A stretch of DNA of 64,000 nt from Lumbricus terrestris (lineage: Eukaryota; Annelida; Clitellata; Crassiclitellata; Lumbricidae). Positions 1,491 through 64,000 of this stretch are shown here, piece after piece. The stretch is from contig OX457043.1 of NCBI GenBank assembly GCA_949752735.1, positions 41,292,087 through 41,356,086 on the forward strand, read 5' to 3'. Both the position numbers and the translations under genes were made by a program. Position 1 is the first letter of the stretch. The number at the start of each line of letters is the position of its first letter. Under the pieces are notes generated by a model. It was not told where the DNA came from. It worked only from the letters and a program-made list of their open reading frames with translations, and searched no databases.

Positions 1491-1590
1491 TTCATTAATC
1501 CATCCTTACATGCAATCAGTTCTCGATAGGTGCAATAATGCAATAGGTGTCTTCCCGATGCTTCTATACATGTCCCCTCGTGCTGTTCAC

Positions 1591-3001
1591 TTTTTTGAAA
1601 GGTCAAGGACACCTTGCTCATCACACGGATACTCGCCACTTCCGGTGACGTACTTCCGCTCCTCCACCTCATCCCTCGCCCGGAACCGACGAGTAAAGTC
1701 GACTGGGGCCAAAGAATCGAATCTGTGCGCATGCGCAGCGAGTGACGTATCGCCGTACGAGCGACACGTGACGGCGCACTCCTTCGCCGGCGCATGCGCG
1801 GACGATCGAGATGGAACGATCGATGATTCGTACGCCGCCGGACTATATTCTTTGGCGGAGGAAGCGATTGCGGCCGCCGGGCGCCACAGCTTCCGCTCCT
1901 GGACGTCAGTTCCTGTCGGACCGAATCTGTTCGGAGAGTTGGACTTGGTCGTCGTTCCGGTCCACGGTTGACTGGAAAGGCCTGGCGCACAGGAGCGCCA
2001 CCGACTCAACTCCGAGAGCAGGGCTGCGCTCTGATTGGTCGGCGTCGAATCGGTTTTGCGGAGGGCGGAGTACGAAGCGGCGTGGTGAGGATCAGCGGGC
2101 GGGTGACGGAAGAGCGGATCCTTTGGTGGTCCGGAGGCTGAGGATGCTGCTGAGGAGGAGGATGACTTGCAGTGGTGATGGTGATGCGAACGGCGCCTGC
2201 GCGGCTGCTGCTGTTGCTGCTGGTGATGCTGGTGCGATGATGGAGCGTTGGATGGAGCGGATGCGGAAGTGGAAGAGGAAGCGGAAGGTGGGAGAGGGTG
2301 GGAGGGTGGGCGCTGGATGCTCGGATGACCCCCCGTCGTCGCTGTTGTGCTGGCGGCCCCGCCGGCGGCGGCGGCGGGAGATGTTGGGTGCGACCCGGAC
2401 TGGAATTCGGGTAGAAGTGGTTGGAGTGGAAATCCCATGAAGAGATAGGGAGGGTAGAGGGAGAACTGCGGTGGTGGGAACGGCAGAGAGGCCAGCTGCG
2501 ATTGGCTGAGACCGCAGATGCTGGCCAACTGCGACATGCTGAGGGGGGAGCTCATATCGGCCGCTCTTCCACCAACACCCGGCTGTTGCTTTCCTCCGCC
2601 GCCACCCCCTCCTCCTGCCTTTCCCTCGGGGGCTCCGACCATCGAAGGCAGGTGGCGCCAGAATGCCGCTTCCCCGTAGGGGAAGTCGGGTGTCGACAGG
2701 GGAGTGCCACGGGGGGCGGATGTCGTCCGCCAGTCCGTCCTTCGAGTTCCGCTTCCGCTACGGACGTCCGGATACGGTGCGACGTCCTTTCTGTCCGTGT
2801 CAACTGGAAGGGTCTTAAGGCAGGACAGCGGTTTACCAGCAACGGAGTTTGATGTTGGGACGAAGGCTAAGGGCGGATCAGAGGAGCAGAAGGACGAAGA
2901 GGATGGCGAGGTGAGTCCGGACAATGGAGACCGGATGTCCCGGATCAGTGCGTCGGATATCGACTTCGACTCTGGACTCGGTTCAGACTTTATCAACGAA
3001 A
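1591..3001 (-). CDS. internal coding exon of a nuclear co-regulator-like gene (LCOR/E93-type candidate)
   Basis: The minus-strand frame is open for about 469 codons. It starts directly after a strong acceptor (pyrimidine-rich tract ending TTTTTGCAG, exon from 3001) and ends at a GT donor (AAAAA/GTGAAC, exon end 1591), because the frame meets TGA just beyond. The exon begins with two bases that complete the G left by exon 13675-13476. The protein starts with a SUMO consensus (IKSE), then Ser/Pro-rich sequence, a Gly run, a hydrophobic Leu/Phe/Pro-rich block around residues 155-200, Ala/Thr/Ser, Gln, Arg and His runs, and ends DEQGVLDLSKK. VLDLSKK fits the PxDLS-like CtBP-binding class. Vertebrate LCOR and LCORL carry VLDLSTKK in a comparable context, from memory. 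No DNA-binding domain is present here; in that family it would lie in a later exon. The exon call is strong and the family name moderate. The donor is non-consensus, and an earlier one (AAG/GTGTCC) would remove the VLDLS motif. Confidence 0.8.
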
Positions 3002-3464
3002 CTGCAAAAATAAATGAACGTTATGCATACGATCTATTATTATTAATAGGCCTATTCAAGCCGAATAAAGTAGGTTGAAACAGCAATAAACGTCATTATA
3101 ATATGCCAGATAGACAGACACACATAGTAAGTGAGACAACCGCAAAAATTCAGTGAGGGAGCACACAAAAATCGTGTTGCTGCAGTATTTAAAACCTTTG
3201 GCGATGCGCTCAAAAGCCCTATTACAGTACAATCCACATAATTATCCATTGCAACTTTTGCGTTTTATCAAACGTTGAACATCTGTTTGATTCGCTAGGA
3301 GTGTGCCAGACGAATTACGTGGCGCCTTGATTCTTATTTATTTCAATGTTCGATCGAAAGAGGTCGTGGGTCACATGCATGACCTGGCGATGTCGACGAA
3401 TTCTGATGAATGAAAGAGGAGCTGTACTGGTTAATCATTCATTCGCTCTGATAATCTACATAAT

Positions 3465-3540
3465 TATATAGCGCCCCTTCAATCTGTCAAGTCAGAGGCG
3501 TTGAGGTCATCATGAAAAAGTATAAATTGTCCCCAGCCAT
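3465..3540 (-). repeat. SINE-like 3' tail fragment
   Basis: Contains TATATAGCGCCCCTTCAA followed by TCAGAGGCG. On the minus strand this reads CGCCTCTGA...GAAGGGGCGCTATATA, the same 3' module as the SINEs at 30776-31012 and 51395-51600. A shorter copy of the module lies near 4548-4580. Confidence 0.45.
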
Positions 3541-3579
3541 GCACAGAAAATCCCTTATACATGTAGCTTTAGCGACGAA

Positions 3580-3785
3580 CATAATATATATAATATATAT
3601 ACATACATAATATTATATATGTCACAAGATCAAGAGCACGATAGGTCTATACTTGGTGTTCCTAACAAAGTTCTGATAACTTATATATATATATATTATA
3701 ATATAATATATATATATATAAGTTATCAGAACTTTGTTAGGATATATATATATTATATATATTATATATATATATATAGGCCTAC
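3580..3785. repeat. TA-rich block with perfect palindrome
   Basis: Bases 3661-3681 are the exact reverse complement of 3721-3741, and the TA-rich spacer between them is itself self-complementary, so the whole 81 bp can fold into one hairpin. TA-rich sequence flanks both sides. Confidence 0.85.
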
Positions 3786-4240
3786 TCTTGAAACTGCCGT
3801 TGCTTTTTTACATACTTAACCACAGTGTCTCCGTAGCGTGGGAATGTAAATTGGTCGCGTGTTTTACCGTCGTTACCGCCTCATTGAAGAGCTCAGAGAT
3901 GAAGTTAAAACAGAAAATGATGAGTCATTATTGGAGCTTGGATTTATTGGGTCATTGAAGAGTGCGATTCGCCGGGTCATTTGCGTCGTTATCAAAGGCA
4001 AAGATGGCAAGGCTTGCATGCGCCTCTGTCGTCGACTATCATTACGTTAATGGAGAATCTATGGTTTATAGGCTTCTACTTCCTGAAATAATGGACGAAT
4101 CGGACACAACGGAAGTAGTCAACCAAATCAGGGATTGCGAGGACAATTTAAATAAGCATGTTCATTGTTTAATGCTTGCAGGGATTGTTGCATGAAGGAC
4201 GACGCGAAAACAAGCCGACCAATTCCCCTCACCCAAAAGG
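3786..4240. other. non-coding, no feature seen
   Basis: Short overlapping open frames occur here but none has recognisable domains, splice context or sustained length. I see nothing else to annotate. Confidence 0.4.
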
Positions 4241-4246
4241 ATGTGG

Positions 4247-4380
4247 ACTAAGCTAAACACTGGGCATCGAACTCCGACACTGGTTGCACTCTGCCAGTGC
4301 CAGCCCCAAGCCTGGATAAAGGAGGAGGGCGTCGCTAATGGTCCTTGTTACCATACAGTGACGTTAAACTCAAACTACCT
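4247..4380 (+). repeat. SINE family A, truncated copy
   Basis: Shares CACTGGTTGCACTCTGCCAG, then CAAGCCTGGATAAAGGAGGA and GGGCGTCGCTAATGG, with the copy at 41757-41870. The same module, more diverged, occurs at 24225, 33040, 35195, 53350 and 59310. The tRNA-like head is missing here. Confidence 0.75.
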
Positions 4381-4624
4381 ACCTACTGGGTATCGACCGT
4401 ATACAACGACGCAACATTTACATGATTTGTATTATTATTATTATTAGAATCACTTTCAACATCACAATTTAATTGTTGTCATGATTGTTACATGTACATA
4501 TATGAATAAAAATTTCTACCGTCAGTTTATTGATTCATTTTTAAAAAAGCGCCCCTTCAAGAAGTCTACTCTGAATGTTTCGCGCAAGTGATTGAAAATC
4601 ACACACACACTATATCCAGTGATA

Positions 4625-4911
4625 TTTTAGTTCTTAGATTAATTTTACTTCTAGTTCTTATTCACTTCTGTTGACGTGATTTTACTTCCACTTCTACCTA
4701 ATATCTTTGCTTCTACTTCTAGTTCTCAAATAATTTTACTTCTAGTTCTAATTCACTTCTGTTGACGTGATTTTACTTCCACTTCTACTTCTAGTTCTCA
4801 AATAATTTTACTTCTAGTTCTTATTCACTTCTACTAGAGCAATTTTACTTCTACTTCTACTTCCAGTTCTCAGATAATTTCACTTCTTCTTCCAGTTAGA
4901 GTTTAGACATA
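4625..4911. repeat. degenerate TTCTA-rich tandem repeat
   Basis: Repeating phrases such as ATTTTACTTCTAGTTCT, TATTCACTTCTGTTGACGTG and ACTTCCACTTCTAC. A related array lies at 11880-12130. The hAT element at 4920 inserted at its end and duplicated ATTTTACT from it. Confidence 0.75.
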
Positions 4912-5150
4912 ATTTTACTCAGGGCCGGCGCCAGAGTATTTGGCACCCTAGGCGAACCTGTCGAACTGCGCCCCCCCGGCGCCCACGGCAACTAAGATTG
5001 AATTAATATTAACTTTCACAAAGGAATGCTATGGTGCCTTTTGTTTTAATTCGTATTTGCATTCAATAGAAAGAAGAAGAATAGCATAGAACATGTATAA
5101 TCTATATAATGGTGTATTCGTTTAAACGGAATTATACCGGTAATGTAATT

Positions 5151-5528
5151 TCAAAACTTCATTTTTCGCGCTTTTGCTTTAGCAAATGTAGAAACGAGTT
5201 CCATCAGCTCAATGTCTTTGGCAATGTCATGTTCAATTGACAGAGTAGCTAGTCCAACAAGTCTTTCTTGTAGCATGGACGTTCGCAAATATGTTTTTAT
5301 CAGTTTGAGCTTAGAGAAGCTTCGCTCACCACTAGCCACAGAAACTGGAAGTGTCAAGAGAATTCGCAGAGCTGTAACAGTGTTGGGGACACTATCTGTT
5401 AGATTATTTTTCAATATAAAGTTTAGTACATCATGTGGCGATGTACACCTTGCAATTCGTCTTGAAATGGCTTTCAGTTCACTGCTTAGATCAACTGCAT
5501 CAATATCTTTGGAGTCTCCATGTTGCAA
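5151..5528 (-). pseudogene. hAT transposase C-terminal (hATC dimerisation) fragment
   Basis: About 125 codons on the minus strand. The sequence has the hallmark hATC block: an LTLPVSVASGERSFSKLK-type motif, then LRTSMLQERLVGLATLSIE. In complete hAT transposases this region forms the dimerisation face and part of the catalytic core. The BED zinc finger and the rest of the catalytic domain are absent, so this is a remnant of a protein usually above 600 residues. It resembles the ZMYM1-like hAT lineage common in animals. It sits inside the element defined by 8-bp duplications. Confidence 0.88.
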
Positions 5529-5760
5529 AGTTTTTCAAGATTCAAGCAATGTTCCATAACTTCCTTACTTCTCTCTGCCATGGGGGATTGAAATAACGAC
5601 GGACACTGACAAATTAAAAATTAAATTTTATTATGATTTAGCTACTATTTTTCTATATTTTTATCCATTTTTGTAAAATAAATAAAATATAAATAAAATA
5701 ATTACAATTTACATATACAAATTTAAATATTTACATCAAATGATTTTAAATAAAACGTTG

Positions 5761-5995
5761 TGAGATCCTGAGTGGCCGAGTGGGTTGGTAGCCCGCTCGC
5801 CACGCCGGCGGCCCGGGTTCGATTCCCGGTCAGTCAGTTTATCAGAGATTAATTTCTCGGATCTTTACTGCGGGTGGCTCGGTCGCAATATAAACGTGGA
5901 GTAGCGGTGGTGAAGGATCTCACCCTCATGGTCGAGGCCATAAGACAGCCGCTGTATAAATATGCGATTACATTTACATTACATTTACATTTATT
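5761..5995 (+). mobile_element. tRNA-derived SINE nested in the hAT element
   Basis: The 5' part resembles a tRNA with internal pol III boxes: box A-like TGGCCGAGTGGGTTGG and box B GGGTTCGATTCCCGG. A body follows (TCAGAGATTAATTTCTCGG shares a hairpin with the SINE at 53180), and then an ATTTACATTACATTTACATT tail. It is not a functional tRNA gene because the 3' half continues into SINE body. Target duplications could not be fixed. Confidence 0.8.
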
Positions 5996-6379
5996 GACAT
6001 TTGTACAAAAGTAAAACTAAATATCTTACCTACAGTATATATCAGTCGACGACAATCGAATTTCAAATATTTAATTTATTTTCAATTTTCAATATTTATG
6101 TTATATTTACACCGTTACACGCCAGATTTTGATTTCGAAATGACGTCACCGGATGTGGCGTTATTTCCTATAACGTAAGTAAGTAAACTAGTGATCAAAT
6201 TTATACTATGCAATTCGTTTCATCTAGCGGGAAAAAATAAAATGTAATATATTGCAATAAAACTTTAAATAAATATATAAATTAACTAAAAATTACAAAC
6301 TTTTAGTGCCGCCCCAGGAATTTGCCGCCCTAGGCGGCCGCCTAGTTCGCCTAGTGGTTAAACCGGGCCTGATTTTACT

Positions 6380-9300
6380 TATATATATTCGTTTTAATGA
6401 GAAAAAGACAATCTGACAATAACGCAGAAATACTAACATGAGTGATAATGAATAATTAGAGTTCAAAGTTCGATAATTAGTCTTAAAGTTAGCTAGTAAA
6501 TATTTTTATATAACGATCGTGGGATAAATTGAGAATTGTCCTTTAATGGGAGAGTATGGTTGTGAGCTCTAGGTCTTAGTTGGTGAGAGGAGGGGGGTCG
6601 GAGAGGAGGTAGGAGTTGGTAGAGAACATGTTTGGGGTTGTGTGTAATGGAGAAAAGGAGTTTTGCATCAGCTGAGTTGGCAAGTTCGGAGACAGTAGGA
6701 AAGGTTTGCTCTAGGTATCCTAGGCGTTTAGCTCTTTTTATGAGTTTTTCAAGGCGTTCTTTGTCAGACGCCAGGGTGAGACCCCACCATGATGGGGAGG
6801 CATACAGTAATTTAGCTACAGTAGTTGCTTTGGTAACATTATGGATAGATGGAGAGGAGAGGCCATGGGTTTTGAGCTTTCTGATGGCATAGAGAGAGGA
6901 TGAGCAGGTAGCTGTGAGGTGGTCTATATGGGCTGTGAGTTTGAGGTTGTCTTGGAGGATAACACCCAGTACCTTCATGGTTTTAACTCTGGTTATGTTT
7001 GGTAATGGTGGAGGAGGGTCATATTGGTGACGGGGGCGGAAAATGATCATTTCTTTCGATTTAGAGTTATTTAGGGTAAGATTGTTGGCAGAAGCCCAAG
7101 TAGAGATCGAGTGGAGCTCAGATGAAATTGTGTTAGCTTGAGTGGATCCTATGAGGAGGTAAGTGTCATCAGCGAATTTGATCATGAGGTTAAGTGGTTG
7201 AGCAGGGTGCAGGTCTGAACCAGTGATGGAGAAGTTAGTAGGTCCTAAGACTGAGCCTTGGACTATACTGGCATTGATTGGGAGGAGAGACGAGGTGTGG
7301 CCTTTGAACACAGTGAGGTGAGAGCGTTCAAGATGATATTCAACAAGCCAGTTATAGATTTGGTCTGGGATATCGAGAGTGGAAATTTTGTCAAAGAGGG
7401 CAGAGTGCTTGACAGAGTCAAATGCTTTGGAGAAGTCAAGGGAGATTATTGAGACATAGTCATTGGTTTTTAGGAGGATTTGTGTGTGATGTAAGATAGA
7501 TATTATGGCGGCGGAGGTAGAGCCAGTAGGTCTGAATGCAAATTGATCAGAAACCAGGGATTCAAGAGGGGGTTGCGTAAGAGTTGGGTATATGTATCTC
7601 TGAACGATTTGCTTTTCAACTATTCTGGAGAGGATAGGGAGGATGGAAATTGGGCGGAAGTCTGCTTTTTGAGAGGGAGGGTTTGTTTTAGCTTTTGGCC
7701 GGATGATGGCTATTTTCCATTGGAGGGGGATGAAGTGGGATAGGAATGAGAGATTGATAAGGTGAGACAGGGGTAGGGAAAAGTATGGTGCGGTAAGTCT
7801 AAGAAACCAAGCGGGTAGGTTGTCATATCCAGTGGCGGTAGGATGCAGATGGTCAAGGAGATAGAAAAGTTGGTATTCCTCAATAAATGGGTAATTGTGT
7901 GGCGCTGTGAGCCGAAAATTGGGAGGCGAGTAATTGTTGTCGGTGGAGATGGAGGAGTAATAGAGGTTGAGGTCGTTTGCGGTGATGTCAGTAGGGTAGT
8001 TGCTCTCGGGGTCTTTGTTGGTAAGGGATTTAACTTTATCCCAAAGCGGTTTAAGACCATTACGTGGGTCGACATTTTTGAGTTCACATGATATTTCTTT
8101 AGAAATGGCTCGGTTGATTTTGAGGGAGACGGAGGATGCTTTTTCAATTTTGTTTTGTCGCATTAAGCGGTTTTTATGCCGTAACATCTGTTTAATTTCT
8201 GGCGTAATGTATGGTGGGTCACTAGAAGTAATGGTTATAGTTCTTTCGGGGTAGAATTTATCCAAACAGTTGAGGGATTCGTGGTAGAATTGGTTCCAGG
8301 CTTCTTTAGGGTCATTGTTGCTGAGCAGACGCTGTGGGTTGTAATCTTGAAGGTGGATGAGAAGATTCGCATGTTGGTCAGGTGTTCGTTTTCTGAAAGT
8401 TTTCTTGATTTTGATTTTGTGCAGGTTTGTGATGTTAGATGATGTGGAAGCAATGATGGTTTTGTGATCTGTTTTAATCACTGAGCTGACGACTTTGATG
8501 TTGCTGTAGATTGGGAGAGAGGTGAGAAGGCGGTCTAGAAAGTTTTCTCCTCTTGTTGGGTGTTTAACTATTGAAGTTAGACCAGTTAATTCAGAAAGTT
8601 TATTAATGTCCAACTTGTTGAGATCACCGGCAAGAATGATAACGGCATTATTGTTTTTGAGTATTAGTTCATCAATGTTGTTACTGAGTTGAAGGAGAAG
8701 AGAAGTCGTTTGATATTTCGGAGCTGGTGGGTGGTATAGTGCTCCAACATAATAGTGTTGACCAGATTTTTCAACGGTAATCCATAACAGTTCAAAGTCT
8801 TTGGTGCTTTCTTTAGGTTGGTGTTGGAGTGCTTTGAGGCGGTTACTGGTGAAGATAGCAACTCCTCCTCCCTTTCTATCGTTTCTGTCTTTGCGGAAGA
8901 TGGTAAATCCAGGAATTTGGATGATAGAGTCAAGGTGTTTAGATTTGAGGTGTGTTTCGGATATGATAGCGATTTCAATATCATAACCGTACAGTTCGAT
9001 TTCCAGCTGTTCAATGGCTTTTGGCTTTGCAAGTGAGTTGACGTTAAGGATGAGAAGAGTCGGAGGGGTATTCTTGGTGGATGATGCAGATTGCGGTTTG
9101 TTAGGGGGATGATTTAGTTGGATTCGGATGAGGTTGCTGGGTCTTTGAGTCTCGTGATGAGATGAGTGGCTTGGCATAAGGTTGTGTCGTTCATGCTTTG
9201 ATGTTTCGATCTTGCATGAAGCTGTTGATCCGAAGTACGAAGTTGCAGTCCTGTTGTTAGATGTAGATGTAGATCTGATGCGGTGAGTGGTAATTCGGGA

Positions 9301-9560
9301 GTTGATGATTCTAGGGTGGTCTGGATTCCATAATTTCAGGTGAAACAATATTTTCCGCGTTGCACGAGGTGGAGGGGTTGATGAAATTCTCAACATAAAT
9401 AGTTCTGAAGAAACGTATTTTACGATTGGCATGGCGCGTAGTGTTGCCGACTTTAGTTTTAAATATCCCGCATAACCGATGGTGAGCGATAATATGCGTC
9501 CGTAAACTATAGATAAAACTGTGTCTCTACCTGGATGTTAATAAATTACGCCGCTAGTAG
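6380..9560 (-). mobile_element. non-LTR retrotransposon (CR1/L2-like LINE), near-complete ORF2
   Basis: It comprises the 979-codon EN-RT frame plus flanking untranslated sequence. The 3' end abuts the target duplication of the hAT element at 6372-6379. No ORF1 is seen upstream (above 9432), so the copy is either 5'-truncated or belongs to a single-ORF lineage. No target duplication was resolved. It has the same orientation as the host gene whose intron it occupies. Outer limits are approximate. Confidence 0.8.
6493..9432 (-). CDS. LINE ORF2: AP endonuclease and reverse transcriptase
   Basis: An uninterrupted 979-residue frame starting at ATG (9432). The N-terminal 125 residues are unassigned. 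An endonuclease/exonuclease/phosphatase domain follows (about 126-330), with LNVNS (129-133), SETHL (158-162), GDLN (269-272) and TDH (321-323) at catalytic positions. The reverse transcriptase has DFRPISILP, a DQFAFRPTGSTSAA block, ISLDFSKAFDSV, QGSVLGPTNF and FADDTYLL, with the catalytic FADD at 753-756. The thumb-type VLGVILQDNL and a C-terminal LRPRAHN...LPLKDNSQFIPRSLYK tail follow. No RNase H is seen. The protein nicks target DNA and copies the element RNA in place (target-primed reverse transcription). The motifs fit the CR1/L2/Daphne group; the exact clade needs a tree. An intact frame implies recent insertion. Confidence 0.93.
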   Translation of the reverse strand: MPIVKYVSSELFMLRISSTPPPRATRKILFHLKLWNPDHPRIINSRITTHRIRSTSTSNNRTATSYFGSTASCKIETSKHERHNLMPSHSSHHETQRPSNLIRIQLNHPPNKPQSASSTKNTPPTLLILNVNSLAKPKAIEQLEIELYGYDIEIAIISETHLKSKHLDSIIQIPGFTIFRKDRNDRKGGGVAIFTSNRLKALQHQPKESTKDFELLWITVEKSGQHYYVGALYHPPAPKYQTTSLLLQLSNNIDELILKNNNAVIILAGDLNKLDINKLSELTGLTSIVKHPTRGENFLDRLLTSLPIYSNIKVVSSVIKTDHKTIIASTSSNITNLHKIKIKKTFRKRTPDQHANLLIHLQDYNPQRLLSNNDPKEAWNQFYHESLNCLDKFYPERTITITSSDPPYITPEIKQMLRHKNRLMRQNKIEKASSVSLKINRAISKEISCELKNVDPRNGLKPLWDKVKSLTNKDPESNYPTDITANDLNLYYSSISTDNNYSPPNFRLTAPHNYPFIEEYQLFYLLDHLHPTATGYDNLPAWFLRLTAPYFSLPLSHLINLSFLSHFIPLQWKIAIIRPKAKTNPPSQKADFRPISILPILSRIVEKQIVQRYIYPTLTQPPLESLVSDQFAFRPTGSTSAAIISILHHTQILLKTNDYVSIISLDFSKAFDSVKHSALFDKISTLDIPDQIYNWLVEYHLERSHLTVFKGHTSSLLPINASIVQGSVLGPTNFSITGSDLHPAQPLNLMIKFADDTYLLIGSTQANTISSELHSISTWASANNLTLNNSKSKEMIIFRPRHQYDPPPPLPNITRVKTMKVLGVILQDNLKLTAHIDHLTATCSSSLYAIRKLKTHGLSSPSIHNVTKATTVAKLLYASPSWWGLTLASDKERLEKLIKRAKRLGYLEQTFPTVSELANSADAKLLFSITHNPKHVLYQLLPPLRPPSSHQLRPRAHNHTLPLKDNSQFIPRSLYKNIY

Positions 9561-9708
9561 TCCAAACTCTGAGAATTTAAAATATTCGAAAATTATATAA
9601 AGCATATCAGAGAACTAAAACATACTGTTATAAAAGCGTAATATAATAATAAAATCTCAACAGCAGAGAAAAATACACGCACGAGCGGTGTGCGCCAAAC
9701 AAACAAAC

Positions 9709-9774
<66 letters not shown>

Positions 9775-10976
9775 TATCCGTGCACTTGTCAGTTTCTCTC
9801 GCTCTTGCAATCTGCAAATTTAGCTTATTTTATATTCACGATGATAGACCTAATGCTTTCTGCATGATAACACTTTCGGGTGGTTCTTTATTAGAAACTT
9901 GGAATTTTAGGCTATGGTATAAATTTAGAAAGCTTCAAGTTTGTGTGGTTTTTCCTGGTGATTAAACTCCACGCTTGGGACCAATTTTGTCGAATTACAT
10001 GGGTTTCATTGCCAGAAGGCCAATGGCATCCGTGTCTCATGATAAAGAATGGACTTGTAGCCTGCAAGCCCAGGTTACGGGCCGAGGGAAATAATGTTCC
10101 TGCTATGCATGTGGGGGATCCATAGAATAATGATAACATAACTTAACTGACGTGAAGAGCAGAACATCAGGTAGGATGCGGGAATTGCGGGATAGATTCC
10201 CGCTATCATACCAAAGGTCCACTCAGTCCATCATTTGCTAGAACGCTTGATAACACTAGTGTGGCTATGAATATAAAGAACTAAACATCCCAAAGTGCGA
10301 TATTGTAATGTGATGTGAATCATGTGAATGAATCAGAATAAGAAGTTGACCACTATTCACACAGGCCTAGTACCAACAGGATTTTACAGAACTAAATAAA
10401 AGTGACAGACAATTAAGCATAATATTATTATCAACGAGAATATTTTGCAACTGTAAACTCTAAGGCTTATTTTTTTACCTCAGATTAAACAAAATGGTCC
10501 GTTTCCTTCTTTGCCCTCAAAACATGTTGCGACAGAATTTGTTCAAACCTGATATATTTCACCCTGGATATTAAATCAGGTCCTGGTCAGGGAATTCTGT
10601 TGGGTTCTCTCTCCAAGGGCAATCCTATATTCACCAGAGACAACCACCCTCCATTTCATAGCCAGCTACAGCTAAACAGTCTCCCTTGCCAGGGGACTGC
10701 CGCTGTTCAGTCTCACGTGCCTGACTCTTTGTCTCTCCTTATTCACAGGCCAATCATATCTGACCTAACTCCAATGGTGACCCTGCCAGTCCGCCCTGGT
10801 TTTCTCATCCCCTCTGTCCTGCATTACCCCAATTTGCATATCAATAGCCCCAATTGAGGTTCTTGCGTGGATTGATCTCGAATAGCCCCTAACTCCAAAC
10901 CGGTTTAGACTAGTTTAGAGCCATAATTATGACCCAGGGAATACAGGTAAAACGCCTCTTTGTTCTGTGACTAATA
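9561..10976. other. non-coding intronic sequence with interrupted poly(A)
   Basis: Bases 9709-9771 are two long A runs split by GGC. The rest has no recognisable gene or repeat boundary. An open frame at 10600-10857 has no coding character. Confidence 0.5.
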
Positions 10977-11825
10977 GGGGCGCGGACATTTCCCCCCCTG
11001 GACAAAACCCCCCGGACAAAACCCCCCCCGGACAAAACCCCCCCCGGACAATTCCCTTCCCGATTTTGCCTAGGACATTAACCCCCCCGGACAATTCCCC
11101 CCCTTTGCTTCCATTTAGGCAAAAATGCGTTTAATCCAACTTCTATTTAAATAATTATTTTTATCCATCCAGCTCCCATTTAAACAAGAATATTTTCATC
11201 AATCCAGCTTCTATTTAGGCAAGAGTATTTTCATCAATCCAGCTCCAATTTAAGCAAGAATATTTTCATCAATCCAGCTTCCATTTCAGCAAGAATATTG
11301 TCATCAATCCAGCTTCAATTTAAGCAAGAATATTTTCATCAATCCAGCTTCTATTTAGGCAAGAGTATTTTCATCAATCCAGCTCCAATTTAAGCAAGAA
11401 TATTTTCATCAATCCAGCTTCCATTTCAGCAAGAATATTGTCATCAATCCAGCTTCAATTTAAGCAAGAATATTTTCATCAATCCAGCTTCCATTTAGGC
11501 AAGAGTATTTTCATCAATCCAGCTCCAATTTAAGCAAGAATATTTTCATCAATCCAGCTCCAATTTAAGCAAGAATATTTTCATCAATCCAGCTTCCATT
11601 TTGTAAAAATTATTTTGCATCAATCCGGCTTCTATTTAGCAAGAAATCTTTTCATCAATCCAACTTAGGACACTTAGGACCGCCGTTTTATAGTAATACC
11701 ACTTACACGCAATATGTTCGACAGGGGGGAATTGTCCTACCCTGGGGGGGAATTGTCCGGGGGGGTTTTGTCCGGGGGGGTTTTGTCCGGGGGGGTTTGT
11801 CCAGGGGGGGAAATGTCCTACACTC
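10977..11825. mobile_element. non-autonomous DNA element with C-rich inverted ends
   Basis: The left end reads GGACATTTCCCCCCCTGGAC followed by several units of the type GGACAAAACCCCCCC. The right end is the inverse, ending GGGGGGGAAATGTCC. A perfect 8-bp duplication, GACTAATA, flanks it at 10969-10976 and 11826-11833. No coding sequence is present; the middle is a 35-bp minisatellite. The 8-bp duplication suggests hAT, P or Merlin machinery, but the extreme termini are too diverged to decide. Confidence 0.88.
11111..11665. repeat. 35-bp minisatellite inside the C-rich element
   Basis: About 15 copies of a 35-bp unit containing AATCCAGCTTCCATTTAGGC and AAGAATATTTTCATC. The variant CCATTTCAGCAAGAATATTG recurs at 11281 and 11421, exactly 140 bp apart, so four units form a higher-order repeat. 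Confidence 0.92.
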
Positions 11826-11879
11826 GACTAATATGCTTCCTCACAATACTAAAACACGGCCCATAAAAATCAGAAGTCT

Positions 11880-12130
11880 CTTCATTTTCGTTCTCAAAAT
11901 AATTATACTTCTTATTCTTATTCACTTCTGAAGGTCTCAATTCCACTTCTTATTCTATTCTCGTTCTTAAAATAATTATACTTCTTGTTCTTATTCACTT
12001 CTAAGGTGTTAATTCCACTTCTTATCCTATTCTCGTTCTTAAAATAATTTTTATTCTACTTCTACTTCTGCTGAACGAAAATACAATAATTATTATTCTT
12101 ATTCTACTTCTTATTCACGAAAATATCACT
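11880..12130. repeat. degenerate TTCTA-rich tandem repeat, second block
   Basis: Phrases such as ATAATTATACTTCTTATTCT and CTTATTCACTTCTGAAGG recur with a period of roughly 70 bp. Related to the array at 4625-4911. Confidence 0.7.
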
Positions 12131-12289
12131 GACTATATCTCTCTGCCCGATCGAGGTTTTATTGCGTTATAAGTTGGGAGCGCCAGTGGCGCCGCGCCCC
12201 TGATAGTTCACTCTTGAATAATTATAGTTATAATAATAATTATTATTATTAAAAATTAACAATAATAATTAGAAACAGAACAGATCATC

Positions 12290-12445
12290 CGGCATATATA
12301 TATATGTGTATATATATATATGTATATATATATAGTTTCTTTATCGACATTGTCGTCGTCTGTTCTGCTGTGGTCACTGTCTGTGTCTGTCTGTCTGCCT
12401 ATCTGTCTGCCTGTCTGTCTGCCTGCCTGCTCGTCTGCTTTTTGT
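12290..12445. repeat. TA and CTGT microsatellites
   Basis: TA/TG-rich run at 12294-12333, then CTGTCTGTCTGCC-type repeats at 12375-12440. Confidence 0.85.
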
Positions 12446-12554
12446 GCGGGACTCTGGCGAGTAGCACTACCTGAGCCCGAAATTGAATAATGATTTTTTT
12501 ATGCGGGGTATACAATCATTAATAAACACCATAACGGACACTCTGAACCGACTG

Positions 12555-12845
12555 GAGACAGATGCTGATGAATTATGATTGTTTTTATTGATTTATGATG
12601 ACTGATGAGTTATGATGATTTATGATGATTTTTAATGATTTATTATGATTTATAATGATTTACGATGATTTATAATGATTTATTATGATTTATGATTTAT
12701 AATGATTTATGATTTATAATGATTTATGATTTATAATGATTTATGATTTATAATGATTTATGATGATTTTTTTAATGATTCATGATGATTTTTTAATGAT
12801 TTATTTTGGTGACGACGACGACGATGATTATGATTTATTATCATG
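12555..12845. repeat. GATTTATGAT-type degenerate tandem repeat
   Basis: Continuous variants of TTATGATGATTTATAATGAT, ending in a GACGAC run near 12813. No coding content. Confidence 0.85.
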
Positions 12846-13084
12846 CATACGATGACCATTGGCTATGTGACTATGATTTACGATGATGGTTAGAAGCTGG
12901 CCAAGCATGATGATTACGCTGGCGATAATGACGAATACAATGATGGCGATGTGTTGCGCAATTGCGCATGCTCCCAGGCAAGTGACATCCAGGTACTCTT
13001 TGAAGCGGCATTACATTACACAAGAACACCATAGGGTAATGTAACCTCTTCATTGCAGTCTATTACATGACACATATTATTTGC

Positions 13085-13448
13085 TCTGCACAACAGCCTA
13101 AACTAATCTTATCTAATCTATCTGATCCACCTATAATGTAACCATCATATAATCTAATCTAATCTAGTCTATATAATCTATCTAATCTAATCTAATCAAA
13201 TCTATCTAATATATATATAATCTAATCTATCTAATCTAATCAACCTAGCCTAATCTAATATAATCTACCCTATCTAATCTAATCTAACCTAATCTATCTA
13301 ATCTAATCAACCTAGCCTAACCTAATCTATTCTAATCTAATATAACTATCTAATCTAGTCTAATCTAATCTATCTAATGCCATCTATTATATCTAATATA
13401 ATCTATCTAATCTAATCAAATCTAATCTATCTAATCTAATCTAATGGC
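13085..13448. repeat. TCTAATC minisatellite next to an exon donor
   Basis: Runs of TAATCTATCTAATCTAATC units across about 360 bp, ending about 25 bp past the donor of exon 13675-13476. Short inverse copies (ATTAGATTAG) occur at 14218-14245 and 45085-45135. Confidence 0.9.
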
Positions 13449-13475
13449 AACCACCTGCGTAACGACTGTTCTTAC

Positions 13476-13675
13476 CCGTCGTCGGTTGCTGATCAGATGG
13501 ATGTCTTGTTCGTTGATGCTGCTGGTGCTGGTGATGCTGCTGCTGCTGCTGATGATGATGATGGTGGTGATGGTCCTTGGTGCCAGTGGAGCTGATGTTG
13601 GTGACGCTCGTCTCTCGTGAGATCTTCTTGCGCTTCAGTTCCGCTATCACTGCATTCAGATAGGCGTTCTTCCTC
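13476..13675 (-). CDS. internal coding exon, basic segment plus His/Gln runs (same gene)
   Basis: A 200-bp minus-strand exon. The acceptor is GGATTGCAG before GAGGAAG, and the donor is a consensus CGACGG/GTAAGA. It takes one base to complete a codon begun in exon 17408-16213 (AG+G, Arg), runs for 66 codons, and leaves one base for exon 3001-1591. The peptide begins RKNAYLNAVIAELKRKKISR, an amphipathic basic segment. A Ser/Thr stretch follows, then a run of seven His and mixed Gln/His repeats encoded by ATG/CTG-type triplet repeats on the plus strand. Vertebrate LCOR/LCORL have a YLNALFRKKDL phrase upstream of their CtBP motifs (from memory), so YLNAVIAELKRKK is a possible counterpart. No enzyme domain is present. 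Confidence 0.8.
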
Positions 13676-13905
13676 CTGCAATCCATACAAACATCACCAC
13701 ATGTGCATTGTGCAATCCCATTATAAGCGTACATTTATTTAGCGCCTTTTCAAGATATGCGAAGTCACAGTCAACTTCATAGACCGTTGCGAAACGATCT
13801 CTAAAAGTGCGATTTCTCATTGCGATAATTATCACTAGATGTGATTAGCAGCTGTATACGTTTTAGACAATAAAATAACGGCCGCGATTGAGAGGTCATA
13901 AGATT

Positions 13906-14215
13906 CAAGGGCGGATACAGAAATTTTCGAAAGGGAGCCAAAGTTTTCGGTCTTGGAACAGGGGAAAATATTTTTTAGTCATTTGTCTTGAATTCCCAAG
14001 AAAAAGATACCATTTTATCCGCCAAATTAATTGATGATCTTTATTTTATTTGTACGGACCTCGTATACGGACCTCGTGGGCATGGTAGGGGGTCTGTGGA
14101 ACTACTCATAGGGGGGAGGGGCACGTCAACTTTCCGAGCCAGAATAGCTGGTCAAAAATAAAGAAATTTTTTAATGGGGATGCCATGGCCGGATTGCCCC
14201 CTAGATCCGCCCCTG
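13906..14215 (+). mobile_element. hAT-type MITE family M1, copy 1
   Basis: 310 bp. The ends are CAAGGGCGGATACAG (left) and CAGGGGCGGATCTAG (right, read inward). The flanks ATAAGATT and ACAAGATT match at 7 of 8 bases, consistent with an aged 8-bp duplication. The interior shares AACTTTCCGAGCCAGAATAG with copies 2 and 3. No coding sequence. Confidence 0.85.
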
Positions 14216-14986
14216 ACAAGATTAGATTAGATTAGATAAGGTTAGGCTTGGCTATAGATCGACTACAGACTACACCGGAAGTATAACGCCCACGCGATTC
14301 TTAAGACATTATGCTATACATTAATCCATTTATATAACGCCACGATTTGCTTCTGTCCGTATGCGCACAATTTATAGTATAACTATAACTATATGACGCA
14401 AAAAGTACATTGTCCACATGGTACTACGACATCAATGGCCACAAACATTTTTACAGTGTTAACTAGCAATACCGCCAGAAGCATTTGTAGGCCTATATTA
14501 TATTGTGATGACTCAAAATGATGTTGTTCAATAATATTTTGATTAATTAATATTTTTATTAATTAATATTTAATTAATATTTTTAATAATACTATTTTAT
14601 GATGAGGAATAGTAACAATAATAAATCCGAGGATTGATAAAAAAATAGTCCTGCTTCATTAAGAATGCATGAACAGATCAGCCGCCGCATGTTTATACAC
14701 GTAGGCTACCACAGCTGGAAAAGACTTCTTATATATCTGTTTCACATAGACAATTTATATATAATATTAAATTATCCTTCTCTTCTAAACACACAGAGCA
14801 GGAAACTAGCAACATGGGTATTTTTCATAAAGCAAATTTCTAAATATGAATTTCTCAGTTTCACTTCATATATAGCATTCGTTTTATTACTGCTGTATTA
14901 TTGCGATGAAATATTTTGAAAACCAAAAAGTAGTAGTCAAAAATGGGTGTAAATTTTCCAGGAGAAAGTGTTCCCTCTTGCCCCTA
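14216..14986. other. non-coding, AT-rich
   Basis: A short ATTAG run at 14218-14245 and AATTAATATTTTT duplications at 14535-14590. One exact TAGGCCTA lies at 14488. Nothing else is supported. Confidence 0.45.
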
Positions 14987-15182
14987 CAAGGGTGGATACA
15001 GGAATATTCGAAGGGAAGGGTCAACATTTTTGGTGGTGTGCGACTTCGTGGGTGTGGGAGGGCCTACGGAATTACTCATGGCGGGGGCCACACCAACTTT
15101 CCGAGCCAGAATAGCTGGTGAAATATAAAGAAATTTCTAAATGGGGAGCCATGGCCGGATTGGCCCCCTGGATCCACCCCTG
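14987..15182 (+). mobile_element. hAT-type MITE family M1, copy 2
   Basis: 196 bp, an internally shortened copy of the same family. It is flanked by a perfect 8-bp duplication TGCCCCTA (14979-14986 and 15183-15190). The ends are CAAGGGTGGATACAGG and, inward from the right, CAGGGGTGGATCCAGG. Confidence 0.93.
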
Positions 15183-15414
15183 TGCCCCTATGAGCATGCG
15201 CCAAAGAAATAGACAAAAGACAGTGTCTGGTAGAAAAGATGTCGCCAAGAATTTATTAAAACTTCAATCGTCTGAAGCCCTCATGAAACGAAAGTGAAAA
15301 CGATGAAATTCTCGACTACAGCCAGATAAGTGCATCTCTTCTTTGGTCGAACTAATTTCCGGAGCTGTAAGGAGCGCACTTGAGCGTCGACAGCGGCGTT
15401 CTGTTGGAGGCTGA

Positions 15415-16175
15415 TTGTGTTGTGAGTTGCGAAGGAGAGGAGATGGGATGGAGAGGGGATGGGATGGAGAGGGGATGGGATGGAGAGGTGGGAAGGTGGA
15501 GAGGGATGTGGGAGGCAAAGCTTCTGGGCGGAAGACGGATGCAGACCGAAGACAAAGAGATGACGACAATAAATCCATTTAAGATAAGGAGATGAAAGAC
15601 ATAGACACAGACACAGAGGCCTACAGAGAGACAGACATAGAGACAGATACAGAGACAGACAAAGAGACAGATACAGAGACAGACACAGAGACATACACAG
15701 AGACAGACACAGAGACAGACACAGAGACAGACACAGAGACAAAGACAGACACAGGGACAGACAGAGAGAAAGAGAAGACTTACTCGGAACAATCAGCGTC
15801 ACAAAAAAAATTGCTGAGACAGGAAGAGAACAAGAGGAAGAGATAGACAATGACACTGAAATATTATACAGACTGACAGCAACAGACAAACGCAGGCAGA
15901 CAGACAGACAAACAGACACACAAAGACACACAAAGAATCTGACAGACAGACACACAGATAGGCAGAAAATCAGACAGACTGACACACTGACTCACAAAAT
16001 CAGACAGACTGACACACTGACTCACACAGACAGACAGACACACAGACGGACACACAGACACACAAACAAACAGACACACAGACAGACACAGAGAAACACA
16101 CAGACAGGTAGACAGACAGAAACACACAGACAGGCAGACAGGCAGAGAGACACACAGACAGGCAGACAGATGCTG
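15415..16175. repeat. GGGATGGAGA and CAGA microsatellites
   Basis: GGGATGGAGAG units occur at 15440-15500, then ACAGACACAGAGACAGA-type repeats from 15600 to 16170 with a short gap near 15780-15880. The long open frames here (SVCLSVCL, ETDTETDT) are repeat artefacts. Confidence 0.92.
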
Positions 16176-16212
16176 TATGTATGTATTGAATGATTAAGTA
16201 TCAATAGCATAC

Positions 16213-17408
16213 CTTGGTTCTGCTAATGGCGTCTCCGTCACGACGTCGTCGCGGAGCACAGGCGACGATCCAGTCTTTACGTCATCCTTGACGTCACCGC
16301 CAACAGTGACCTCATCTTCGGTTCGTCTGGGATCGGCCTCAGCACCGTCTGGCGCATGCGCATCACCAGAGGGACAGACCGGAAGTGGATCGGATGCTCC
16401 GTGATCCGTGGTGGAAGTCTCAACAACGGTGACGACGTCGACGACATTCTCCTGTTCCACTTTTCCAGCGAAGGGTGGAGCGTCAGTTTCCGGCGATTGG
16501 TTGACGACGATGGAGATGGAGTTGGGCTGAGACGATGGATCCCTGGGAAGAGGAAGAGGAAGATGGAGAGCATCGTTCTTCGAAGTCGTTTCATCAGTTG
16601 CTGCTGCTGCTGCTGCTTCTGGTTCTTCGGGAGATGGTGGTGATCTGGATGCGGATGCTGTCGGTGGTGGTGGTGGTATGGCCGTGGCTATGTCGTTCAG
16701 TCGAGTGGAACGGTTCTCCGGAAGAGCGCTTCCATCCTCCTCTGCGGTTCCCGTCCTCCTCTGACCATCTGGACTCTCCTGAGGAGGTAGCTCTGACGAA
16801 GGAGGAGGAGCGACCTCGTCGACTGGACAACATCCGTCGATCAACGGCACGCTCTGACCGGAAATGGAATCCTTCTCAGCCGCTACCTTGACCTTGGCCT
16901 TGACCTTGGCCTCCGTCTTGCCTCCTCCATCGGATGGCTTCTTCGACGGAGCGACACCGGCTCGCGTCTTCTTCTTCGGTCGACCACGCTTGCGTTCCCC
17001 CACCAACAGCGGAGGAGGAGGAGGAAGTACTGGGACGGGCGCCTCTACCGTACGAGACACGTCACTGCTTTTAGCTCCGCCCACTTCCGCCTCCCCACTT
17101 CCGCTTTCGAAGATGACGTCAGCGCTCAACGAGACGGTAGAATCGGAATGCGCTTCCGGTTTGGCGTTCCTGACGAGCTTTCGGCGTTTCTTCGATGGAA
17201 CTGAAACCGGTTCCGCGGATCCGTCGCCGAGTGGCGGAACAGTGGCGTCGGCGCCTTTGATGTGCCGCTTAATAGGGGGGCGTCGTTTGATGCCTTTGTT
17301 TCGAATGTTTGACGCGTCCTGCACTGGCTTCCCGTTCGACAAGTCGTCGCCACCAGCGTTTATGTTGCGCCCGATGTCGTCCGATTCGTCGGCGGTCTTA
17401 CCGCAGCC
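16213..17408 (-). CDS. internal coding exon with NLS and AT-hook (same gene)
   Basis: A 1196-bp minus-strand exon. The acceptor is CTTCTTCTGCAG/GGC (exon from 17408, frame 0) and the donor CCAAG/GTATGC, leaving two bases for the next exon. About 398 residues of acidic, Pro/Ser/Ala-rich sequence that is probably disordered. Visible elements are a basic nuclear-localisation cluster KKRRK (about 73-77), a proline run (129-133), an AT-hook RKRGRPKKK (139-147) that would bind the minor groove of AT-rich DNA, a Lys/Ala-rich KAKVKVAAEK stretch, a second proline run and an alanine run. No enzyme fold is visible. The even GC-rich third positions, splice sites and phase match to 13675-13476 support real coding. 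Upstream exons were not found in the window. Confidence 0.82.
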
Positions 17409-41872: not shown

Positions 41873-42760
41873 TAAAGGCCTAATGCAAGTCCCAATACTA
41901 CATAATTGAGGAGGGCGACAATAGTATCTTAACTGTTCCGACAGAACAAATAAGATACGAAAATAATTCAGACTATAATTATAGAGTGAGGACATAAATA
42001 CAATGATGGTGTTTAGACGGGGAAACATGTGTGCATTGGACTACAATAATCCGACAATATGGCACATCTTGAAAAGGCGTGAATTCAAATTAGTATACAT
42101 GGACATTTTCAAGGAGTGTTGGAGAGACGAGCTTGATGCCACCTGGAATGGATTGAGGTGGAGAGGGGTTTGAGGATTGGAAGAATTTTGCCCCTGCATG
42201 GAAGTAAAGATAAGATCCGATAAATCAATTGGGATGGCTTGTGTGCCATGAGTTCGCTGCAGGGTATATATAGCCGAGTGGATACACGCACGGCATTGCA
42301 CGCACTCAATTGAGGCGATCACTGCAGTGGAATAAAAGCTTGATCAAGTCCTCACCACTCACAGTAATATTGCTCAGGGCCATCATCGTATGGTGATCGT
42401 AGGTCATATAATTATTGTATAGCGTCCTATCAGTGCGTTTTAATAAATATATAATGAAGCGACGGTACACGTTAAATTTACGATGCACTGACTAGGTCAA
42501 GTAAATAAAATGAAAATAGAATATATAGATTGGAAAATAAAGCAAAAGAAATAAAATCGGAAGAAAAAGATCGTATAACTGATCGAGGATTCATCACAAG
42601 TGCAGAGAATAGGCCCATATGAGAATAAAATAGGTTGGAGGTTGCACCATTGCCATGTAGGCCTAAAATAGGCTGGAAACTGCACTCTTGCAAAAATATA
42701 AGGGCTAAAATTTTAAATAAAACAGGTCGATCGGAACTCGGAAACTGTCATTACGAATAA
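41873..42760. other. non-coding; fading edge of the 28-bp satellite
   Basis: From about 42480, phrases such as GAATAAAATAGGTTGGAGG and AAATAGGCTGGAAACTGCA look like eroded satellite units. Nothing is recognised before that. Confidence 0.45.
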
Positions 42761-42762
42761 AA

Positions 42763-44250
42763 TGGGTCGGAAACCTAACTATCGAAACAATAGGTCGGAA
42801 ACCTAACTATCGAAACAATAGGTCGGAAACCTAACTATCGAAACAATAGGTCGGAAACCTAACTATCGAAACAATAGGTCGGAAACCTAACTATCAAAAC
42901 AATAGGTCGGAAACCTAACTATCGAAACAATAGGTCGGAAACCTAACTATCGAAACAATAGGTCGGAAACCTAACTATCGACAAAATTGGTCGGAAACCT
43001 AACTATCGAAAAAATATGTCGGAAACCTAGCTATCGAAAAAATATGTCGGAAACTTAAGTATCGACAAAATAGGTCGGAAATTTAAGTATCAAGATATAG
43101 GTCGGAAACTTAAGTATAGAAAAAACAGATCGGAAACGTAACTATCGAAAAAATAGGTTGGAAACTTAACTTTCCGATCTATTTTATCGGAAACTTAACT
43201 ATCGAAAAAATAGGTCGGAAACTTAAGTATCGAAAAAATAGGTCGGAAACCTAACTATCGAAAACATTGGTCGGAAACTTAACCGAAAAAATCGGTCGGA
43301 AATTTAACCATTAGAAAATAGGTCGGAAACTTAACTATTACAAAAATTGGTCGGAAATTAAACTATCGAAAAATAGGTCGGAAACTTAACTATCGAAAAA
43401 ATAGGTCGGAAACTTAACTATCAAAAAAATAGGTCGGAAACTGTAACTACCGAAAAAATAGGTCAGAAACGGAACTATCGAAAAAATAGGTCGGAAACCT
43501 AACTATCGAAAAAATTTGTCGGAAACCTAACTATCGAAAAAATAGGTCGTAAACTTAAATATCGAAAAATTAGGTCGGAAACCTAACTATCGAAAAAATA
43601 GGTCGGAAACAGTAACTATCGAAGATATAGGTCGGAAACTTGACAATCAAAAAAATAGGTCGGAAACTTGACAATCGAAAAAATAGGTCGGAAACTTGAC
43701 AATCGAAAAAATAGGTCGGAAACTTAACTATCAAAAAAATAGGTCGGAAACTTGACAATCGAAAAAATAGGTAGGTAACTTAACTATCGAAAAAATAGGT
43801 CGGAACTTAACTATCGAAAAACTAGGTCGGAAACTTAACTATCGAAAAAATAGGTCGGAAACTTAACTATCGAAAAAATAGGTCGGAAACTTAACTATCG
43901 AAAAAATAGGTCGGAAACTTTACTATCGAAAAAATAGGTCGGAAACTTAACTAGCGATAAAATAGGTCGGAACTTAACTATAGAATAAAAAAGAATCTGA
44001 AACTGTAGCGTTCGAATAAAAAAAATTACGGAAATTGTAATTATCTGGAAAAAAGGACCTGTAGGTCACTAATTATTATCAAATAAAATAGGTCGACAAT
44101 TATACTTATCAAACAAAATGATCGGAAAAACTGTGATTATCGGAAAATATTGGCGGAAACTGCAATTATCGAATACAATAATAGGTCAGAAATTATAATT
44201 ATCGAAAAAATTGATCGGAAATTGTAATCATCGAAAAAAAATTGGTCGGA
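42763..44250. repeat. 28-bp satellite array
   Basis: More than 40 tandem copies of a 28-bp unit, GGTCGGAAACCTAACTATCG plus AAACAATA. The left block (42765-42990) is near-identical with AAACAATA, the middle and right have AAAAAATA, and the array decays after 43980. At 43163-43180 the sequence TTAACTTTCCGATCTATTTT runs in the opposite sense, a small internal inversion. Confidence 0.96.
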
Positions 44251-60615: not shown

Positions 60616-60789
60616 TTTGTTTGCCCGTATAACCAGGCCCGCATAAGCGTAGGCTAAGGGTGCTGCAGCACCCAGACCCGCACTGTTCATGGGTCCTCAG
60701 TTTTGGAAATGATAAAAAAATTAACGAGACTGCTGCAACATTAATAGGCAGATACGAAGTCATTATCGAACTTTTTTTCAATGTTGACA
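60616..60789. other. left flank of the 88-bp satellite
   Basis: Contains CCAGGCCCGCATAAGCGTAG and GGGTGCTGCAGCACCC (a 16-bp palindrome). The first resembles a hAT terminus, but no matching right end or duplication was found. Confidence 0.4.
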
Positions 60790-62870
60790 TCATTGAAAAA
60801 GCCTATCCGATCTCAGAAATGATTTGAAAATCTATTTGAGCCGTGACTTTGATTTAAAATTTTATCCGACCAGTGACATCATTAAAAAGCCTATCCGACC
60901 TCAGAAATTATTCTAAGCTCAATTTGACCAGTGACGCTAATCTGAATTTTATCCAACCAGTGACATCATTAAAAAAGCCTATCCGACCTCAGAAATTATT
61001 CTAAGCTCAATTTGACCAGTGACGCTAATCTGAATTTTATCCGACCAGTGACATCATTAAAAAAGCCTATCCGACCTCAGAAATTATTCTAAGCTCAATT
61101 TGACCAGTGACGCTAATCTGAATTTTATCCGACCAGTGACATCATTAAAAAAGCCTATCCGACCTCAGAAATTATTCTAAGCTCAATTTGACCAGTGACG
61201 CTAATCTGAATTTTATCCGACCAGTGACATCATTGAAAAAGCTTATCCGACCTCAGAAATTATTCTAAGCTCAATTTGACCTGTGACGCTGATCTGAATT
61301 TTATCCGACCAGTGACATCATTAAAAAAGCCTATCCGACCTCAGAAATTATTCTAAGCTCAATTTGAACTGTGACGCTGATCTGAATTTTATCCGACCAG
61401 TAACATTCATTGAAAAAGCTTATCCGACCTCAGAAATTATTCTAAGCTCAATTTGACCTGTGACGCTGATCTGAATTTTATCCGACCAGTGACATCATTA
61501 AAAAAGCCTATCCGACCTCAGAAATTATTCTAAGCTCAATTTGACCAGTGACGCTAATCTGAATTTTATCCGACCAGTGACATCATTGAAAAAGCTTATC
61601 CGACCTCAGAAATTATTCTAAGCTCAATTTGACCTGTGACGCTGATCTGAATTTTATCCGACCAGTGACATCATTAAAAAAGCCTATCCGACCTCAGAAA
61701 TTATTCTAAGCTCAATTTGAACTGTGACGCTGATCTGAATTTTATCCGACCAGTAACATTCATTGAAAAAGCTTATCCGACCTCAGAAATTATTCTAAGC
61801 TCAATTTGACCTGTGACGCTGATCTGAATTTTATCCGACCAGTGACATCATTAAAAAAGCCTATCCGACCTCAGAAATTATTCTAAGCTCAATTTGACCA
61901 GTGACGCTAATCTGAATTTTATCCGACCAGTGACATCATTAAAAAAGCCTATCCGACCTCAGAAATTATTCTAAGCTCAATTTGACCAGTGACGCTAATC
62001 TGAATTTTATCCGACCAGTGACATCATTAAAAAAGCCTATCCGACCTCAGAAATTATTCTAAGCTCAATTTTACCTGTGACGCTGATCTGAATTTTATCC
62101 GACCAGTAACATTCAGTGAGAAAGCTTATCCGACCTCAGAAATTATTCTAAGCTCAATTTGACCTGTGACGCTGATCTGAATTTTATCCGACCAGTGACA
62201 TCATTAAAAAAGCCTATCCGACCTCAGAAATTATTCTAAGCTCAATTTGACCAGTGACGCTAATCTGAATTTTATCCGACCAGTGACATCATTAAAAAAG
62301 CCTATCCGACCTCAGAAATTATTCTAAGCTCAATTTGACCAGTGACGCTGATCTGAATTTTATCCGACCAGTGACATTCATTGAAAAAGCCTATCCGACC
62401 TCAAAAATTATTCTAAGCTCAATTTGACCAGTGACGCTGATCTGAATTTTATCCGACCAGTGACATCATTGAAAAAGTCTATCTGACCTCAGAAATTATT
62501 CTAAGCTCAATTTGACCTGTTACGCAAATCTGAATTTTATCCGACCAGTGACATCATTGAAAAAGCTTATCCGACCTCAGAAATTATTCTAAGCTCAATT
62601 TGACCAGTGACGCAAATCTGAATTTTATCCGACCAGTGACATCATTGAAAAAGTCTATCCGACCTCAGAAATTATTCTATGCTCAATTTGAACTGTGACG
62701 CAAATCTGAATTTTATCCGACCAGTGACATCATTGAAAAAGTCTATCCAACCTCAGAAATTATTCTATGCTCAATTTGAACTGTGACGCAAATCTGAATT
62801 TTATCCGACCAGTGACATTCATTCAAATTTCATTCATTCCGACTTCTGACAATGATTTTTAACGCTGTAT
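60790..62870. repeat. 88-bp satellite with higher-order repeat
   Basis: About 23 tandem copies of an 88-bp monomer that itself splits into three related parts of about 29 bp, each ending near TCCGACC or TTGACCAG. Variant monomers (CATCATTAAAAAAGCC versus CATTCATTGAAAAAGCTT; CAGTGACGCTAAT versus CTGTGACGCTGAT) alternate in blocks. The same four-monomer pattern recurs 353 bp apart (CATTGAAAAAGCTTATCCGA at 61231 and 61584). Confidence 0.97.
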
Positions 62871-63803: not shown

Positions 63804-64000
63804 ATCTTAAATGTATGACGACAGAAGAGTCTTACATGTATTTAATTAATTGCTAATTGACAAGTCCTGATGTGTATATATATATATATATGTATATATA
63901 TAGCAAATCTATAGGGACCTATATCTAATCTTTCCGGTTCTTGATTGGTCTTCGCAAATCGATAACACGACGTGCTATCAAAGATCGAGTCAATCGCCTC
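63804..64000. other. window end, TA run
   Basis: TATATATATATATGTATATA at 63873-63903. Nothing else is recognised. Confidence 0.5.

Follow-up and report, generated by a model that had tools for sequence, protein, structure and literature searches.

A likely 3' part of a SAND-type regulator gene with a putative CtBP-recruiting tail in Lumbricus terrestris

The 64,000-nucleotide stretch of Lumbricus terrestris DNA analysed here (contig OX457043.1; hereafter, the window) likely contains the 3' portion of a single animal gene encoding a nuclear regulator of the SAND-domain (KDWK) type with a repressor-recruiting tail, a kind of gene that is plausible and still poorly known. Three minus-strand stretches, 17408-16213, 13675-13476, and 3001-1587 (exons 1, 2, and 3, with 1196, 200, and 1415 nt, respectively), joined in one frame encode 936 amino acids followed by a TGA stop codon. 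Alignments with three relatives, all with a C-terminus of one type, show exon 3 to be conserved coding sequence with a conserved C-terminus. Moreover, exons 2 and 3 together probably form the 3' terminus of a gene of the SAND type, since in one of these relatives, P0004, a SAND domain is followed by counterparts of the blocks in exon 2 and then in exon 3.

In the chain, exon 1 (16213..17408) is modelled as an internal coding exon of 398 codons plus 2 nt according to the frame check, and is separated from exon 2 (13476..13675), placed by homology to P0004, by an intron with simple repeats (13676..16212), while the second intron (3002..13475), which holds a LINE and a hAT remnant, leads to the terminal coding exon 3 (1587..3001). 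The splice signals proposed in a sequence-only reading of the window are in place: AG precedes each exon at 17408, 13675, and 3001, GT follows exons 1 and 2 after 16213 and 13476, and the phases, AG/G across intron 1 and G/TT across intron 2, are right and leave the frame open throughout. At the second junction, the proposed donor offset alone is open to the end among five offsets tried. The gene end had been placed at 1591, which is not exact, although the open frame does run to a terminal stop, at 1589-1587. Since exon 1 has 1196 nt (2 modulo 3) and could not be spliced directly to exon 3 without loss of the frame, a middle part with a length of 2 modulo 3 is needed, and the 200-nt exon 2 satisfies this.

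Phase agreement alone does not establish the chain, since 409 phase-compatible open AG..GT stretches of 50-400 nt (a count that includes exon 2) lie between exons 1 and 3, and the splice sites of exon 2 are weak, with 47% pyrimidines at -20..-4 of the acceptor and 5 of 7 consensus positions in the donor. Stricter splice-site cut-offs leave two middle-exon candidates, and exon 2 is not among them. Thus, the pyrimidine-rich acceptors described earlier for every exon hold for exon 1, whose acceptor at 17408 is strong (88% pyrimidine), but not for exon 2. Exons 1 and 3 are individually longer than expected by chance, with 2 and 0 of 2000 dinucleotide shuffles of their own letters open in any of the six frames, respectively. 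The earlier argument that the three-part chain is unlikely by chance is not confirmed, given that 1402 of 2000 such shuffles leave exon 2 open and that this exon has so many phase-compatible alternatives; on the sequence evidence, its place in the chain rests on homology, not on phase. The per-exon shuffles were used in place of a block-shuffle of the whole window, an uninformative control for open reading frames in which the longest run had a mean of 352 codons and a maximum of 438, probably from shuffled repeat arrays. Minus-strand exon prediction with a codon model trained on the claimed exons themselves, which therefore offers no proof, listed only exon 1 plus a stretch that overlaps exon 3 but is read in a different frame, and missed exon 2.

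Exon 3 has clear counterparts in other proteins. A search with residues 105-230 of its open frame retrieved P0002 (E = 3.9e-43) and P0003 (E = 3.0e-12) among 7994 scored candidates, those sharing most words with the query. P0002 is identical to the window protein at 332 of 433 aligned residues and has the same C-terminal VLDLSKK (1590..1610 in the window, minus strand), a putative motif of the CtBP-recruiting type, while the 122 of 415 identities with P0003 fall mainly within the core block. Within exon 3, the block GLSQSQLASLPFPPPQFSLYPPYLFMGFPLQPLLP (2409..2513, minus strand) is identical at 35 of 35 positions in P0002 and at 29 of 35 in P0003; this block and that of exon 2 are conserved features missed by the sequence-only reading. 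Two features, the block around PPYLFMGFPLxPLLP with its LxxLL pattern (LQPLL; LHPLL in P0004) and the LDLS.K that forms the last six residues, are kept in all four sequences compared, i.e., the window protein, P0002, P0003, and P0004. It is doubtful that the LxxLL of the PPYLFMGFPLxPLLP block forms a classical helical nuclear-receptor box, since a proline lies within the pattern.

The last 936 residues of the gene contain no Pfam domain above its cut-off, and the exon 3 alignment has no match in the PDB. A structure model of exon 3, built from only three sequences, shows almost no ordered part and has a confidence too low for a fold search (mean pLDDT 38.4); such disorder would be compatible with an adaptor tail, although as weak evidence. 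At the start of the core block (2450-2545, minus strand), a weak Pfam match to HTH_AraC appears below the cut-off in exon 3 (E = 0.28) and in P0002 (E = 0.051), with no such Pfam match in P0003 or P0004; a short helix pair is possible there, and HTH_AraC membership is not claimed. A weak match of exon 3 to TFIIA (E = 0.88) is also below the cut-off. Residues 370-936 of the joined protein used as a query returned only P0001 (PF00076, E = 5.3), disregarded as a chance match; this poor result probably arose because low-complexity stretches took up query words.

The link to SAND proteins comes from a combined query (the first 84 residues of exon 1, with the block of exon 2 and the core of exon 3), which retrieved P0002, P0003, and P0004 among 962 candidates, and nothing matching exon 1 alone; the match to P0004 was modest within the collection (E = 2.0e-3) and carried mostly by the core block. 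P0004 has 1272 residues and one Pfam domain, SAND (1.2e-19, residues 203-273), and the KDWK signature is present in its sequence. Five PDB chains match this protein, each within its SAND stretch: 1ufn, 1oqj (GMEB1, second of the five), 1h5p (SP100), and 8j70 and 8j71 (SP140). The SAND domain is followed by a stretch of about 540 residues that has no Pfam domain and would be expected to form a fast-evolving linker, and then by residues 813-828, identical at 12 of 16 positions (pairwise E = 1e-4) to the helix-like block KNAYLNAVIAELKRKK of exon 2 (13671-13624, minus strand), which is followed in the window by a His/Gln run. Further on, residues 985-1086 correspond to exon 3 (pairwise E = 1e-16), and the protein ends in GALDLSIK. 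Thus, the order of helix block, core block, and terminal LDLS.K is common to the window protein and P0004. When the P0004 linker was compared by tblastn with the interval from exon 1 to exon 3, exon 2 was the best sense-strand match with 27.3 bits, a score reached by 0 of 300 shuffles (best shuffle 25.0), and it was also the top match in a separate P0004 run; full-length unmasked P0004 scored 27.7 with exon 2 and slightly more, 28.9, with low-complexity sequence at 15553-15344. Through P0004, with its SAND domain and C-terminal blocks in kept order, the earlier proposal of a nuclear transcriptional (co-)regulator receives indirect support.

Exon 1 carries an NLS-like basic stretch, KKRRK (17192-17178, minus strand), and an AT-hook, KRGRPKKK (16991-16968, minus strand). 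The AT-hook, VLDLSKK, and IKSE, a psi-K-x-E SUMO-like site in exon 3 (2982..2993, minus strand; pattern only), are present as first read, but P0004, the sole relative extending to the AT-hook region, has no such hook, and IKSE is not kept where testable: P0003 lacks it, the one pattern of this kind in P0004 is located elsewhere, and P0002 begins only after the site. No homologue of exon 1 was found in a large protein collection with the first 84 residues and residues 370 on as queries, nor was homology found with P0004 (best E = 1.5); the sole PDB match, DKC1, was disregarded (E = 0.32). These results would suit a rather unlikely alternative in which exons 2 and 3 belong to a SAND-type gene and exon 1 lies outside it, as an open stretch of another gene or as an alternative or skipped exon. 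Scores from a codon model that was trained on exon 3 are not decisive: in exon 1, the claimed frame (-2.5) ranks above the other two sense frames (-40.9 and -76.0) and below one antisense frame (5.7), and the claimed frame of exon 2 reaches 8.6 versus 7.1 for another frame. However, the shuffles described above argue against a fortuitous open stretch, the phase of exon 1 fits exon 2, and GC content shifts at both splice sites (0.34 over the 120 nt preceding 17408, 0.56-0.63 within the exon, and 0.44 beyond it, with 0.52 in a simple repeat further upstream). Exon 1 is therefore kept in the model because of its 398 open codons, its strong acceptor, and the GC change.

Neither SAND nor HTH_psq was found by Pfam in the three minus-strand frames of 17409-63999, in a scan by frame that might overlook a domain spread across short exons; the four weak matches there (TgpA_N, DUF4834, DUF7397, and DUF2274) are all below curated cut-offs. 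Likewise, tblastn of P0004 against the window gave no credible SAND match. Elsewhere on the minus strand, the Pfam scan covered the exons and, in one frame, 3022-9537, and nothing was found by an Rfam scan and a tRNA scan. With no SAND found upstream in the window, either the intron before exon 1 would be longer than 46 kb or this locus would lack the SAND part, and we infer that SAND exons lie beyond the window, were missed, or, less likely, were lost. Loss in this lineage would place exon 1 at or near the coding start and make the product a tail-only adaptor, and the frame does stay open from 17408 up to 17642, with an ATG there. Nevertheless, this reading is quite improbable in view of the GC drop immediately before 17408, the strength of the acceptor at this position, and the possibility that SAND exons are located over 46 kb away in a repeat-rich genome. 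The preferred reading continues to be a SAND-type gene extending upstream of exon 1.

Several repeats and mobile elements were observed in the window. Intron 2 contains, on the strand of the gene, the open frame of a non-LTR retrotransposon (LINE; 6493-9537, minus strand, 1014 codons) with endonuclease/exonuclease and reverse transcriptase domains by Pfam, together with a remnant of a hAT transposase dimerisation domain (5151-5534, minus strand, Pfam 1.2e-10), a MITE-like hairpin read by eye at about 3661-3741, whose inverted repeat starts with CCTAACAAAGTTCTGATAACTTATATA, and a tandem array at 11156-11666 (35-bp unit, about 15 copies; a period of 140 is also listed). Two further tandem arrays are located at 42738-43990 (28-bp unit, about 45 copies) and 60785-62827 (88-bp unit, 23 copies, 95% matches).

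The sequence-only reading had pointed to the LCOR, LCORL, and E93 families, whose proteins would carry CtBP motifs followed by an HTH_psq domain. The window protein resembles LCOR/LCORL (PALI1/2) and E93 in its LDLS-type CtBP motif, VLDLSKK being close to the VLDLSTK of LCOR, and in the presence of an LxxLL pattern and an AT-hook. In LCOR, however, the LDLS-type CtBP motif is located before the HTH, whereas in the window protein and its three relatives it is the very C-terminus, with nothing after it. Moreover, HTH_psq was not found by Pfam in exons 1-3 or in the searched upstream minus-strand frames, and the one long relative, P0004, has SAND instead. An LCOR/E93 orthologue is thus extremely improbable and was rejected on HTH_psq and motif position, a judgement by features rather than by direct LCOR/E93 alignment. 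As for the remaining likenesses, excerpts of the literature report LxxLL for PALI1 and AT-hooks for PALI2 (PMC8864842).

Among SAND regulators, the Pfam SAND with KDWK relates P0004 to DEAF1, GMEB1/2, SP100/SP110/SP140, and AIRE, and its PDB matches relate it to the SAND stretches of 1ufn, GMEB1, SP100, and SP140. The differences are that Pfam reports only SAND in P0004, with no MYND, PHD, bromo, or HSR domain, and that the proteins studied here have a helix block, a PPYLFMGFPLxPLLP block, and a C-terminal LDLS.K of their own, with SAND not found in the window. DEAF1 was set aside for want of a C-terminal MYND zinc finger by Pfam in P0004 or exon 3, and the SP100/AIRE group for want of an HSR/CARD, PHD, or bromodomain beside SAND by Pfam in P0004. 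Another comparison is offered by the arthropod corepressor adaptors Hairless and S-CAP, which, according to the excerpted text of PMC6777938, have a CtBP motif towards the C-terminus, with ELM2/SANT in chelicerate S-CAPs and without it in Hairless and myriapod S-CAPs. The likeness is that of an adaptor with a CtBP-type motif towards its C-terminus, and P0004 differs from them in having SAND. Pfam reports no ELM2/SANT in the exons or in the upstream minus-strand frames, unlike in chelicerate S-CAPs; this absence does not exclude Hairless or myriapod S-CAPs, since these lack ELM2/SANT too.

Taken from these sequence features, the best functional reading would be a DNA-bound adaptor that recruits a corepressor through a CtBP-type tail. 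SAND exons would lie upstream, beyond base 64000 of the window, and exon 1 would encode a disordered linker bearing the NLS and the AT-hook. The SAND domain, perhaps with the help of the AT-hook, would keep the protein on DNA. LDLS-type motifs recruit CtBP in LCOR, HIC1, and others, and the C-terminal LDLSKK may similarly recruit this corepressor and lead to repression of the targets, while the PPYLFMGFPLQPLLP block and the exon 2 block might, as a guess, serve for docking of further cofactors. In known SAND-type domains with KDWK, DEAF1 binds TTCG half-sites and GMEB1/2 bind ACGT half-sites (excerpts of PMC4274154), and SAND proteins often work with other regulators and chromatin factors (excerpts of PMC3343087). 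Among the matches listed from the open-licence literature, available as excerpts, no account was found of a SAND protein with this tail.

Tentatively, these proteins could represent an undescribed animal family in which a single protein would bind DNA through its SAND domain, recruit CtBP through its own C-terminus, and offer a conserved PPYLFMGFPLxPLLP block for docking, thereby serving as a complete corepressor adaptor. In that case, the window would contain the 3' half of one member, with an AT-hook absent from P0004. We know of no named SAND group with a direct link from SAND to CtBP. For a gene with no Pfam domain above the cut-off in its last 936 residues, the analysis defines testable parts and corrects the LCOR/E93 label. 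If the C-terminal motif binds CtBP, this gene would directly link SAND-type DNA binding to CtBP repression.
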